Program-made: the position numbers and the translations under genes | The notes under the pieces: generated by a model | The model's input: the letters and a program-made list of their open reading frames with translations, nothing else | What the model was told of the DNA's origin: nothing | Database searches by the model: none | DNA from: an uncultured Anaeromyxobacter sp. | GTDB taxonomy: Bacteria > Myxococcota > Myxococcia > Myxococcales > Anaeromyxobacteraceae | Reading direction: 5' to 3' | NCBI GenBank assembly: GCA_903874275.1 | Contig: CAIQRS010000068.1 | Coordinates: 1 to 45,435 of the forward strand | Length of the DNA: 45,435 nucleotides | Shown: positions 23,394-29,192 of the stretch, piece by piece | Layout of the letters: the number at the start of each line of letters is the position of its first letter | Numbering within the stretch: position 1 is the stretch's first letter

Positions 23394-24458
23394 ATGTACC
23401 GCTTGCTCTCATCCGCACTCGCGGCGTTGTTCCTCACGACATTCGGGCTTGCCGGCTGCGGTGGATCGGCTGACCCCGCTGGCCCGCCGGCTCCTCAGCT
23501 CCTCCGGGCCGAGACCGGCGCTGGTCGTCAGGTGATGGTTTCGTGGGCGCCCGTCGCCGCACCTGGCCTCGAACGCTACGTGATCCATTGGCGACAGGGC
23601 TCCGGCCCACAGGAGATGCTGGCCAGCGTGAGCTTGCCCGACACAGGCCGGGTGATTCCTCGGCTCCAGCCCGGCACCTACTCCTTCGCCGTCGAGGCGG
23701 TCGACGCGACAGGGCGGACCTCTCCGCGCAGCGCCGAGGTCACCACGACCGTTCTCCCCGCCCCGCAGGCCGCCATCCCGCTCGGCACCGACGGCGCGCC
23801 GAACGGCTACTACGAGTATCTGCCTGCCGGGTACGGCGACGGCGTGCCGAGGCCACTCCTGATCTACTTGCATGGCACTGGATATGGCGGAAACGGGTCG
23901 TTCGATCTCGACTCGGTGCTGGCCTGCTGCCCGCCCGGCATGGTGAACGCGGGAACCTGGCCAGCCTCCCTGCCGTTCGTGGTCCTCTCCCCACAGAGCA
24001 GCCTCACGCAGACCCGGGCGGACTGCGCGGTTGGGGAGGAGATCCACTCCTTCCTCGCCTGGGCGCTGGCTCGATACACAGTGGACCCGAAACGGATCTA
24101 CCTGACCGGCATGAGCTGCGGAGCGATTCGCGTGTGGAACTACCTCGGCGCACGCACCGACCAGCAGGTGGCGGCGGTCCTGCTGATGGCCGGGGATCCA
24201 GGGTCCGCCTGGACGCAGGCCGGCTGCGGCCTCGGCAGGGTGGCCATCTGGGCCTTTCACGGTACCGACGACCGGCAGGTATCGTTCAGTTCGGAACAAG
24301 CCATCATGCAACAACTGCTCGCATGCCCGGCTCCGCCTCGCAGGGACGTGGTCTTCACGGCGGTCCAGGGCGCCGGCCACGAGGTGGCGTGGGAAGCGTA
24401 CGAAGGGTCCACGGGGCTCGAGGCTCTGAACTGGTTGCTCGCGCACGGCAAACCGTGA
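23394..24458 (+). CDS. Lipoprotein esterase/depolymerase-like alpha/beta hydrolase with Fn3-like domain
   Basis: 354 residues from ATG 23394, with AGGGAGG about 5 bases upstream. Lipobox GLAGC places the acylated Cys at residue 22. A fibronectin type III-like domain (about 38-125: MVSWAPVAAPGLERYVIHW, GTYSFAVEAVDATGRTS) precedes an alpha/beta hydrolase fold of the PHB depolymerase/feruloyl-esterase type: LIYLHGTGYGG (oxyanion region), the nucleophile elbow GMSCG with Ser, Asp in HGTDDRQV and His in GAGHEVAW. The substrate could be a polyester or acylated carbohydrate at the cell surface, but this is inference. Codon use differs from its neighbours, with many codons ending in A or T (TTG, TCA, ACA, CTT), a sign of recent acquisition. 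The cysteine next to the nucleophile and the CC pair may form disulfides. Confidence 0.8.
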   Translation: MYRLLSSALAALFLTTFGLAGCGGSADPAGPPAPQLLRAETGAGRQVMVSWAPVAAPGLERYVIHWRQGSGPQEMLASVSLPDTGRVIPRLQPGTYSFAVEAVDATGRTSPRSAEVTTTVLPAPQAAIPLGTDGAPNGYYEYLPAGYGDGVPRPLLIYLHGTGYGGNGSFDLDSVLACCPPGMVNAGTWPASLPFVVLSPQSSLTQTRADCAVGEEIHSFLAWALARYTVDPKRIYLTGMSCGAIRVWNYLGARTDQQVAAVLLMAGDPGSAWTQAGCGLGRVAIWAFHGTDDRQVSFSSEQAIMQQLLACPAPPRRDVVFTAVQGAGHEVAWEAYEGSTGLEALNWLLAHGKP

Positions 24459-24489: not shown

Positions 24490-25746
24490 CTACCCGCGCG
24501 TCTTCGCCTGCCTCACGTACCGATCCAGGTCCTCGCGGTCGATGAGCGAGAGGATCTCCACGGTGTTCTGCCGCTCCGCCCGCCGGTAGATGAGCCGGAC
24601 GTCGGTGGCCACCCGCACACGGTAGTAGCCCGACAGCCCCTCCAGCGGGATGGCACGCAGGCTGGGGTGGCGGTGGTCCTGGGCGAGCAGGTGGGCCTGC
24701 TTGAAGGCGGCCCGCAGGATCCTCCGGTCCCAGCCCTCGATGGAGTCGTAGAATTCCCGTGAGTAGACCGGCATGAGCCAGGTCTCGGCGTCGCTCCCCT
24801 CCGGCTCCTCCTGCGCGGGTGGACCGGGCTCCGGCGCCGCTCGCGGTGCACGCTCCGCCCTGACCCGCGTGAGCTCGGCCTCGAGCTCCTGCTCCCGCTC
24901 CCTGGACCGCTCGAGCCGCGCCTCGAGCGCCCCGAGCTTGCCCCCCAGGTCGCGGACCTCGGCGCGTGCACGGTGGGCGTCCTGCGCCGCGTCCGACGCG
25001 CGAAGCGCATCGGCCTCGGCTCGCGCGCGGGTGGCATCCTGCCGGGCGGCGGTCTCGGCATCCTGGGCCCTCGCCGACTCCTCGACCGCCCGGGACTCCC
25101 GCGCACGGGCCTCGCGCAGCGCGCCCTGGATCTTCTCCCGCTGCTCCTCGCCCTTGAGGCGGACCTCCTCGGCGCGGACCTCGCCGGCCTTCTCGGCCTC
25201 CCTCAGCCGCGTCTCCAGCCTGGCCAGCTCGCCGACCAGGGCGACGACCTGCGCGGCCGGATCGTCCGCCTCCCCCCCGTCCCGGGCCGGAGGGCGGGCG
25301 CCCTCCTCACCGGAACCGAAGTAGTGGGCCGCCAGCTCATCGAGGAACGGGAGCGCGGTGGCGCGGACCTCGCCGCTTCGGTCGGAGAGCACCCTCCAGA
25401 GCGAAAGGGCGAGCGCGGCGTCCCCGCCCCCCACGTCGAGCAGGTCGTCGGCGTCCTCGATTCCCAGCACGGTTCGCGGGAACGGGGGGCGCTCGAAGGC
25501 CTTCGTGAGCGCGTCCAGCACCGACCGCGCGGCGGGCGGGTTGGCCCGGATCTCGTCGGCGATCACGTCGCACCGCTCCACGTCGCCCAGGGAACCGGTG
25601 CGGAAGCCGGGGATGGAGAGCTTCCGCTCCTTGACGATGGCGCGGGTCTCCTCCGGCGTGAGCGCCACGTAGAGGAAGACCGAGAGCTGGTCGCGGGAGA
25701 GCCCTTCGAGCGGCGCGTCCAGGATCTGGAGCTTGCCCTTCGCCAT
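24490..25746 (-). CDS. Coiled-coil protein with C-terminal RelE/ParE-like domain
   Basis: 418 residues from ATG 25746. Three parts are visible. Residues 1-143 form an unfamiliar, mostly helical domain (LSRDQLSVFLYVALTPEETR, LDALTKAFERPPFPRTVLG). Residues about 165-300 are a long Glu/Arg/Ala-rich coiled coil. After a Pro-rich linker, residues about 328-415 match the RelE/ParE toxin fold: YSREFYDSIEGWDRRI, PLEGLSGYYRVRVATDVRLI and a terminal VEILSLIDREDLDRYV, the positions of the core strands and the usual HRxDVY end. Free-standing toxins of this fold are about 90 residues and paired with an antitoxin. Here no antitoxin gene is adjacent, so the domain may act as an RNA- or ribosome-binding module. 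The metallophosphoesterase gene starts the unit, 12 bases upstream. Confidence 0.7.
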   Translation of the reverse strand: MAKGKLQILDAPLEGLSRDQLSVFLYVALTPEETRAIVKERKLSIPGFRTGSLGDVERCDVIADEIRANPPAARSVLDALTKAFERPPFPRTVLGIEDADDLLDVGGGDAALALSLWRVLSDRSGEVRATALPFLDELAAHYFGSGEEGARPPARDGGEADDPAAQVVALVGELARLETRLREAEKAGEVRAEEVRLKGEEQREKIQGALREARARESRAVEESARAQDAETAARQDATRARAEADALRASDAAQDAHRARAEVRDLGGKLGALEARLERSREREQELEAELTRVRAERAPRAAPEPGPPAQEEPEGSDAETWLMPVYSREFYDSIEGWDRRILRAAFKQAHLLAQDHRHPSLRAIPLEGLSGYYRVRVATDVRLIYRRAERQNTVEILSLIDREDLDRYVRQAKTRG

Positions 25747-25758
25747 GACCGACCGCCT

Positions 25759-26595
25759 CTAGCTCCGCGAGGCGATGACGGGCTGGACCGAGCGGATCCC
25801 GCCACGGTCCACCTCGTAGACGAATCCGCGGGCCCGGCGGATGGGCTCCTCGGCGACGCGCGACGCCGAGCCGGCGCAGAGGATCGGGGTGGGTCCGGCG
25901 GCGCCCGGGATGTCCACGCGGAAGGCGCAGTGGCGGTGTCCGTGCAGCACGCCGGCGATCCGGACGTCGGCCACCATGCGGACGAGCTTGTCGGCGTCCT
26001 GCAGCGGCGTCCGGGCCACGAGGGCGTCCGAGGGAATCCGCTCGCGGGGGAGGAGCAGGTGGTGGTGGAGCGCGAGGAGGACCGCCCGCCCCTCCTTCAC
26101 GTGCTCCCGGACCAGCTCGCGGCAGGCCTGGAGCTGGGCCGAGCCCAGGAGGCCGGGCGTGTCGAGCGGGGCCTCGCCGAACTGGGCGCTGTCGAGGGCG
26201 ACGATGGCGATCTCGGGAGCGGGAAGGGCCGCGAACGGGTACGAGGGCTCGGGGCGCCGCATGCCCCGGCCATCGGGGCCGATCATCCGGAGGAATCGGG
26301 CTGTCTTCACCGACTCGGCCGTCCAGACGTCGTGGTTTCCCGGGACGACGGTGAGCTTGCCGGCGTCGGCCCACCTGCGCAGGAGCTTCGCCGCCCGCTC
26401 GAACTCGCTCGCCTCGGAGGAGAGCGTGAGGTCGCCGGTCACGACCAGGTGGTCCACTCCCGCCGCCTCGAGGTCATCGAGGACCCGCTGGGCGAGCCGG
26501 ACCGAGTGACGGTCGCAGTCCCTGGGAAGGTATCCGTTGCGCGGATATCGGCCGCGGTCGGAGAGATGCAGGTCGGAGACGTGGCCGAGGCGCAA
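25759..26595 (-). CDS. Calcineurin-like metallophosphoesterase
   Basis: 278 residues from TTG 26595; an in-frame TAG five codons upstream rules out a longer form. All metal-binding motifs of the superfamily are present: D8-x-H10 in [10 protein letters not shown] in VTGDLT (D55), GNHD (86-89), His in LALHHHLLL and GHRH near 217. Such enzymes hydrolyse phosphomono- or diesters (cyclic nucleotides, nucleic acids, lipid A precursors). Sequence motifs do not decide between these; the length and motif spacing are closest to the Icc/CpdA-like group. It is divergent from lon and lies 12 bases upstream of the coiled-coil/RelE-like gene, so a shared task is likely. Confidence 0.88.
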
Positions 26596-26723: not shown

Positions 26724-29192
26724 ATGTCCGAGAAGAAGAAGGAGGGTGCTGGCGCCCAGGTCGCCCCTGCGATGGGGCCGCCGGCCCTCATCAACAAGGA
26801 GGACATCCCCCAGGTCCTCCCCATCCTGCCCCTGCGCAACTCGGTCTTCTTTCCCGGAGGCGTGCTCCCCCTCGCGGTGGGGCGCCAGAAGACCATCGCG
26901 CTCATCAAGGACGCCGTCCGCGACGAGCAGGTCATCGGGGTCGTCACCCAGCGCCGCGCCGAGGAGGAAGACCCGGGCGCCGCCGACCTCTACACCGTCG
27001 GGACCGTCGCCCGCATCGTGAAGCTCCTCAAGATGGGGGAGGACAACTACTCCCTCGTGGTCCAGGGGCTCGCCCGGGTCCGGGTCCTCGACCTGGTCCA
27101 GGAGACGCCCTACCTCAAGGCGCGCGTCGAGCCGGTGGAGGACAAGACCTCCGTGGACGAGGTCGAGGTCGAGGCCCTGGCCATCAACTTGAAGAAGCTG
27201 GCCCGCGAGGTCATCGAGCTCATGCCGGAGCTGCCCACGGCGGCCACCGAGCTGGTGGACTCGATCACCCACCCCGGTCACCTCGCCGACCTCATCGCCG
27301 CCAACGTGGACGTCCCCATCGAGGAGAAGCAGCAGGTCCTCGAGACGGTGGACCTCAAGGCGCGCATGAAGCTCGTGCTCGAGCTGCTCAATCGCAAGCG
27401 GGAGATCCTCAAGCTCTCCAACAAGATCGACAGCGCCGTGAAGGGCGAGATGTCGAAGACCCAGCGCGAGTACTACCTGCGCCAGCAGCTCAAGGCCATC
27501 AAGGAGGAGCTGGGCGAGCTGGGCGAGGAGGAGGAGGAGCTCGACGAGCTGGGCGAGCGTCTCAAGAAGGCCGGCCTCCCTCCCGACGTGGAGAAGGTCG
27601 CCAACAAGGAGCTCAACCGGCTCAAGGCCATCCCCACGGCCAGCTCCGAGCACGCCGTGGCCCGCACCTACCTCGACTGGATCGCCGACCTCCCCTGGTC
27701 CAAGCGCACCGAGGACAACCTCGACATCGAGAACGCCCGACAGATCCTCGACGCCGACCACTACGGCCTCGACAAGATCAAGAAGCGCATCCTCGAGTAC
27801 CTGGCGGTTCGCAAGCTGAAGAACGACATGCGCGGTCCCATCCTCTGCTTCGTCGGGCCTCCCGGCGTGGGCAAGACCTCGCTCGGCCAGTCGATCGCCC
27901 GGGCCACCGGCCGCAAGTTCGTCCGGCTGAGCCTGGGCGGCGTGCGCGACGAGGCGGAGATCCGCGGCCACCGGCGCACCTACGTCGGCGCGCTTCCCGG
28001 CCGGATCATCCAGTCCATGAAGAAGGCGGGGGCGAACAACCCCACCATGATGCTCGACGAGATCGACAAGCTCGGCGCCGACTTCCGCGGCGACCCCAGC
28101 GCGGCGCTCCTCGAGGTGCTCGACCCCGAGCAGAACTTCAGCTTCTCCGACCACTACCTCGACGTGGCCTTCGACCTCTCCAAGGTGATGTTCATCGCCA
28201 CGGCGAACCTGCTCGATCCCATCCCGTCGCCGCTCCGCGACCGCATGGAGATCCTCGAGCTGCCCGGCTACACCTTCGAGGAGAAGGTGCACATCGCCCA
28301 GCAGCACCTCGTGCCCAAGCAGCTCAAGGAGCACGGCCTCTCACCCGACGCCATCGAGTTCTCCGAGAAGTCGCTCATCAAGATCATCATGGCCTACACG
28401 CGGGAGGCCGGCGTCCGGAACCTCGAGCGTCGCATCGCCGACGTGGCGCGCGCGATCGCCGTCGAGGTTGCGGGGGGCAAGGTCCCGCCCGGCGCCCGGC
28501 GCTCCATCGAGGAGCCGGATCTCGCCGACATGCTCGGGCCGGAGAAGTTCTACAACGAGACGGCCGAGCGGACCGAGGTGGCCGGCGTGGCCACCGGCCT
28601 CGCCTGGACCGCCGCGGGCGGCGACCTGCTCTTCATCGAGGCCACCCGCATGCCGGGCAAGGGTTCGCTCACCCTCACCGGCCAGCTCGGCGACGTCATG
28701 AAGGAGTCGGCGCAGGCGGCGCTGTCCTACCTCCGTTCCAAGGCCGACCACCTGGGCATTCCCGGGAACTTCCTCGAGAAGACCGACATCCACATCCACT
28801 TCCCGGCCGGCGCCATCCCCAAGGACGGTCCCAGCGCCGGGGTGACCATCCTCACGGCGCTGGTGTCGCTGCTCACCGGGATCCGCGTCCGGTCCGACGT
28901 GGCCATGACCGGTGAGGCGACGCTCCGGGGCCTCGTACTCCCCGTCGGCGGCATCAAGGAGAAGGTCCTGGCCGCCCACCGGGCGGGTATCAAGCGGGTC
29001 ATCATGCCGGCCCGGAACGAGAAGGACCTGGTGGACGTCCCGGAGCAGGCCCGCAAGGAGCTCGAGTTCGTCTTCGCCACCCACATGGACGACGTGCTCG
29101 GCGCCGCGCTGGAGGAGAACCCGGTGGGCCGCAAGGTCCCGACCCCTCCTCCGCCGGAGGGTGGCTCCAAGCCCCCTGAAGTCCGCGCCTGA
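26724..29192 (+). CDS. lon: ATP-dependent protease Lon
   Basis: 822 residues from ATG 26724, chosen because AAGGAG lies 7 bases upstream; ATG 26685 would add 13 residues. Order of domains: LonN substrate-binding domain (about 32-225, [19 protein letters not shown]), helical coiled coil, AAA+ module with Walker [10 protein letters not shown] (near 378) and Walker [11 protein letters not shown], and the protease domain with the Ser-Lys dyad, Ser704 in KDGPSAGVT and Lys in [11 protein letters not shown]. Lon degrades misfolded and regulatory proteins, including antitoxins. Myxobacteria commonly have two Lon proteins, one vegetative and one developmental; which this is cannot be told. It is monocistronic by spacing, with a 104-base gap to the kinase gene. 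Confidence 0.96.

Follow-up and report, generated by a model that had tools for sequence, protein, structure and literature searches.

A conserved antitoxin-free RelE-fold domain on a coiled-coil protein of Myxococcota, a candidate tethered ribosome-directed RNase

P1 is a 418-residue protein encoded in a 45,435-nucleotide stretch of DNA from an uncultured Anaeromyxobacter sp. (contig CAIQRS010000068.1 of assembly GCA_903874275.1; the whole stretch is hereafter called the window), and it carries a predicted RelE/ParE-type fold at the C-terminal end of a helical domain and a long coiled coil. We read it as a multidomain RelE-fold protein without an antitoxin, encoded by a vertically inherited single-copy gene and most likely acting as a tethered ribosome-directed RNase, and give this reading a probability of about 0.45. 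The open reading frame (ORF) reported in the initial annotation is real and lies on the minus strand, which that annotation had not stated; it begins with ATG, has a coding-like GC content by codon position (0.79/0.49/0.93) and has homologues in about 40 other genomes. The fusion of a RelE/ParE-like domain to a coiled coil, also proposed there, is borne out by the domain model, the structural matches and a single predicted helix spanning the coiled coil, and the two motifs on which the proposal leaned, SGYYRVRVATDVRLI and ILSLIDREDLDRYV, are both found in P1.

The assignment of the C-terminal domain is carried by its fold. The AlphaFold2 model (pLDDT, the predicted local distance difference test score, 87.8) has RelE topology, and its agreement with the topology described for RelE (PMC11980606) supports a RelE fold. 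Foldseek retrieved 30 chains of the PDB at E<=0.001, essentially all of them RelE/YoeB/YafQ-type toxins, while VIA gave 93 chains at Z>=8, with Z up to 11.4 and a root-mean-square deviation of 2.0 over 81 residues, the best being Mycobacterium tuberculosis RelJK/RelE3 and Staphylococcus aureus YoeB. The Cami1 structures 8phb and 8phj also match the model, as do ParE chains (5czf, Z 10.4). Compared with RelE, YafQ and ParE, the predicted structure has its best counterparts in RelE, YoeB and YafQ. In Pfam, P1 stays below the curated cut-offs, with 19.6 bits for PF05016 ParE_toxin (cut-off 23, E=0.0014) and 13.4 bits for PF24732 (cut-off 24.4); across 28 members of the P1 family the best E value of a ParE-type model is 0.0006, and the models hit are ParE_toxin and ParE_like. 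These scores reflect a limit of sensitivity, not a structural feature, and it is for this reason that the fold carries the RelE/ParE assignment. Three short stand-alone ORFs of the ParE_toxin family elsewhere in the same genome (L119, L120 and L121, on contigs C199, C102 and C97) do exceed the Pfam cut-off, unlike P1.

Residue alignment with Escherichia coli RelE places a basic or aromatic residue of P1 at each position of the catalytic set (Table 1). In the 28-member alignment of P1 homologues, from which all residue counts are taken, the four positions R376, R378, R384 and R404 are arginine in 28 of 28 sequences, and the Y410 position is always aromatic (Y in 24, W in 3, F in 1). In E. coli RelE, cleavage is significantly reduced by R61A, R81A and Y87A, K52 and K54 being less critical, and RelE can do without the Y87 hydroxyl only if R81 is present (PMC2807027); all P1 homologues with W or F at the Y410 position retain the R81 equivalent. 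Beyond the catalytic set, W339, R342, R359-H360 and S362-A365 are near-absolutely conserved. No part of P1 is more conserved than the RelE domain, the columns of which have a mean identity of 79%. In five close pairs, the ratio of non-synonymous to synonymous substitution rates (dN/dS, by the Nei-Gojobori method) is 0.07-0.14 for this domain and 0.22-0.40 for the N-terminal and coiled-coil segments.

Searching 195 Myxococcota genomes with a profile of the C-terminal domain gave matches in 41, 40 of which carry P1, with one match each, the remaining match being a distant relative in genome G150. Almost every genome of the window's family has P1, as do members of six other families, but only three genomes of the large family f6 have it. 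Apart from copies truncated at a contig end, P1 is always fused, and there is one copy per genome. Relatives of the domain were found neither on plasmids nor in the viral contigs searched, and a contig scan with a close relative as query returned four loci, all labelled myxobacteria. Within the window's family the gene order lexA, P1, phosphoesterase, lon is retained, which favours vertical inheritance.

No antitoxin was found with this domain. The initial annotation had seen none beside P1, and this holds more widely: none of 31 loci has an antitoxin-like ORF on the same strand within 60 bp of P1, and the Pfam scans find no antitoxin domain within the protein. The sole recurrent small P1-adjacent gene with a known family encodes a rhodanese, in one family of genomes. 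With neither an adjacent nor a fused antitoxin found, membership of a type II toxin-antitoxin system was rejected.

In the mode of action that we propose, a cellular partner or signal is probably recognised through the helical N-terminus, and the coiled coil probably oligomerises the protein. The RelE domain, probably held on a flexible linker, would most likely enter the ribosomal A site or bind other RNA and, when allowed, cut RNA through R376, R378, R384, R404 and Y410. Restraint would come from the N-terminal and coiled-coil part of P1 itself or from a dedicated signal, rather than from an antitoxin, by analogy with Cami1. The earlier suggestion of a self-restrained toxin or an RNA-binding module points in the right direction, given the RelE-fold fusion, the missing antitoxin and the conserved active-site set, but its partnership with the phosphoesterase is not supported. 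We regard it as possible that the RelE toxin fold has been domesticated, in a conserved single-copy gene of several Myxococcota families, into an RNase that is active, free of an antitoxin, tethered by a coiled coil and dependent on the ribosome, serving ordinary translation control and not acting as a selfish or defence toxin.

Several points weigh against an RNase reading. RelE is the top match of the P1 family profile among PDB sequences, but at E=0.078 the sequence similarity is not significant on its own, so that the residue mapping depends on a weak alignment, which the fold supports. The structure models were built from five sequences only, and the full-length model has a predicted template modelling (pTM) score of 0.33, at which domain packing is uninformative and masking of the RelE domain is not readable. 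The equivalent of RelE R45 is E369 (E in 24 of 28 homologues), and those of K80 and R83 are D403 and D406, changes that make the rim of the active site more acidic than that of RelE. Some of the mapped arginines are, moreover, shared by members of the superfamily that act on other targets, and may be retained without catalysis.

Part of this evidence would suit a RelE fold that has become a non-catalytic adaptor binding RNA or the ribosome, perhaps at the A site or on rRNA, with a coiled coil that recruits factors and arginines that hold phosphate, a reading that we regard as possible. The replacement of R45 by E369 and the acidic IDREDLD rim fit it, the conserved W339, R342, R359-H360 and S362-A365 point to a fixed binding interface, and an adaptor would need no antitoxin, in keeping with the absence of one. 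It accounts less readily for the retention of all positions of the catalytic set, including the aromatic residue at the Y87 position, which are not obviously required for pure binding, and R45, for its part, is not named as critical for cleavage by RelE (PMC2807027). Judged from the conserved residues, RNase activity is rated somewhat above a pure binding role. That the C-terminus is instead a protein-binding BECR domain of ParE type, directed for example at a topoisomerase and not touching RNA, is unlikely. The Pfam hits are to ParE_toxin and ParE_like, a family mixing mRNases and gyrase inhibitors (PMC11980606), and ParE chain 5czf matches the model, but ParE toxins are reported to lack the typical catalytic residues of BECR RNases (PMC11980606), which P1 has. 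RelE/YoeB/YafQ RNases also hold the top structural ranks, although the gap in Z to ParE is about 1 and not decisive.

The initial annotation had paired P1 with the neighbouring phosphoesterase, next to lon, in a possible stress or defence system; neither this pairing nor a link with Lon is supported, and nor is a role in defence. The metallophosphoesterase has the DxH, GD, GNHD and GHxH motifs (identified by eye) and a Pfam Metallophos score above the cut-off; it starts with TTG and lies upstream of P1 in the direction of transcription, across a 12-base gap, as the annotation had stated. A two-gene system could draw on this shared strand and short gap, which recur in two genomes of the window's genus, and on the weak, partial match of the phosphoesterase to a model of anti-phage phosphoesterases (NF053862, DS9-type), its strongest NCBIfam match, at 77.3 of the 420 bits needed, a relation that is distant at most. 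The pair is, however, not conserved across Myxococcota: outside the window's family the phosphoesterase has no close ortholog (E<1e-100), the other P1-bearing families having distant paralogs or none; in most sister genera, though not in the window's genus, a gene of about 300 residues intervenes; and genus g4 has P1 and no phosphoesterase match. Lon, which diverges from the far side of the phosphoesterase, is near P1 only in the window's family. PADLOC gave only weak coiled-coil matches, lexA and lon are housekeeping genes in a conserved neighbourhood, and P1 is single-copy at a fixed position in the family. We consider a two-gene stress or defence system highly improbable; since the ortholog and the synteny are limited to the window's family, neither the phosphoesterase nor Lon appears to be a general partner of P1, and both appear to be local neighbours.

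The N-terminal domain of P1 was matched to no named family, although it may yet have a known fold. The full-length model places helices, at moderate confidence, at residues 18-28, 31-40, 55-68, 70-83, 110-121 and 125-143; Pfam HEAT matches in several P1 members are weak and at most sub-threshold, and a profile of the domain matches chiefly designed helical-repeat proteins in the PDB. Across the 195 Myxococcota genomes the domain is confined essentially to P1 proteins. An effector-associated or death-like identity was considered and found no profile support. The coiled-coil segment, about 135 residues long, gives the SMC/Rad50-like matches typical of coiled coils, and the linker between it and the RelE domain (about residues 299-327) is of low confidence in the model.

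Table 1. Coordinates of P1, its parts, its neighbours in the window and a second group of RelE-like proteins
Feature	Coordinates	Strand	Basis
P1, HEAT-like/coiled-coil/RelE-fold protein, 418 aa	24490..25746	minus	ORF and translation, 28-member alignment, C-terminal profile in 40 genomes
HEAT-like helical domain at the N-terminus (residues 10-145), not matched to a named family	25312..25719	minus	full-length model
Long coiled coil, residues 163-297	24856..25260	minus	one predicted helix, pLDDT ~90
C-terminal RelE/ParE-fold domain (predicted), residues 322-418	24493..24783	minus	AlphaFold2 pLDDT 87.8; VIA Z 11.4
Putative catalytic equivalents R376 (K52), R378 (K54), R384 (R61), R404 (R81), Y410 (Y87)	24517..24621	minus	HMMER residue alignment to RelE 4v7k
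Calcineurin-like metallophosphoesterase, neighbour with no demonstrated partner role	25759..26595	minus	Pfam Metallophos 41.6 vs 21.5 bits
lon protease, divergent neighbour	26724..29192	plus	ORF; likely start MSEKKKE; longest ORF from 26625
SEC-C/RelE-like locus	L094:2943-5018		
SEC-C/RelE-like locus	L113:2855-4879		
SEC-C/RelE-like locus	L114:3161-5206		
SEC-C/RelE-like locus	L115:2207-4195		
SEC-C/RelE-like locus	L116:2685-4646		

The surroundings of P1 differ between lineages. In the window, lexA and P1 are separated by a lipoprotein-like gene (23394-24458, plus strand) that combines an fn3 domain with an esterase-like alpha/beta-hydrolase region; in the two sister genomes L035 and L036 lexA directly adjoins P1, and the gene looks like an insertion peculiar to the genome of the window. 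The gene between P1 and the phosphoesterase in sister genera (for instance L037:8776-9678 and L045:9138-10052, minus strand) begins with a signal-peptide-like segment and matches nothing in Pfam. In the other families P1 has varied neighbours, among them a short-chain dehydrogenase and a rhodanese, a beta-lactamase-fold protein, an HAD hydrolase, a protein kinase and an ABC transporter ATPase. Family f2 (L055, L058, L059, L060 and L061) has a single-domain rhodanese gene after P1, with a 4-base stop-codon overlap in three of the five genomes, and in genome G037 the gene downstream of P1 (L056:4708-6612), with a 1-base overlap, encodes a 634-residue protein ending in a SEC-C motif.

A second architecture was reached through the distant P1 relative in G150. 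In five other Myxococcota genomes, proteins of 653-691 residues carry, besides a SEC-C motif and a helical region, a stretch resembling a coiled coil and, at the C-terminus, a RelE-like domain. They retain the R61 and R81 equivalents, their Y87 position is not always aromatic and their N-terminal half differs from that of P1; the best matches of the L094 domain in other genomes are mostly domains of P1 type. Antitoxin-free coiled-coil RelE proteins in Myxococcota are therefore more than one family. The SEC-C motif of the L056 neighbour was not used as a link to these proteins, the shared stretch being only a motif of 17-20 residues, and a search of the literature for SEC-C together with ribosomes gave no result.

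Most of what is known about RelE domains concerns toxins bound to an antitoxin, Cami1 and the RTL domain of CoCoNuT being precedents for fused ones, and the P1 family adds a well-conserved case with an apparently complete catalytic set. A survey of the RelE/ParE superfamily published in 2025 omitted many multidomain BECR proteins, for reasons that included the lack of an identifiable antitoxin and too small a family size (PMC11980606), and we found no description of the P1 family in the open-access papers searched. A conserved chromosomal gene of many myxobacteria, with a RelE fold on a coiled coil and no antitoxin, suggests that a toxin has been tamed and turned into an ordinary regulator of the cell. 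P1 offers a way to ask by experiment if a RelE RNase can be operated in the absence of an antitoxin, and if domains of this kind have a part in normal translation control.

Set beside known systems, P1 resembles the single-domain mRNase toxins RelE, YoeB and YafQ in its basic or aromatic residues at the K52, K54, R61, R81 and Y87 positions. Unlike them, it has an N-terminal part of about 320 residues and no antitoxin, is single-copy, vertically inherited and strongly conserved, and bears a glutamate at the R45 position. The RTL (RelE-like) domain of CoCoNuT CnuH, the catalytic status of which is uncertain, lies within a large helicase of a coiled-coil-rich system (PMC11090510) that includes McrBC-type GTPases, whereas P1 is a lone small protein without such genes. 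In Cami1, a CARF domain controls a RelE RNase that acts at the ribosomal A site (PMC11229360). Cami1 itself senses cA4 through its CARF domain and belongs to type III CRISPR loci, while the N-terminus of P1 is helical, HEAT-like and followed by a coiled coil; no CARF domain was matched in P1 by the Pfam or PADLOC scans, the N-terminus being helical in the model, and an identity of P1 with Cami1 was rejected on this ground. The likeness between the two lies in their layout, a C-terminal RelE fold on a longer protein without an antitoxin, and in Cami1 it is the N-terminal part that exerts control.
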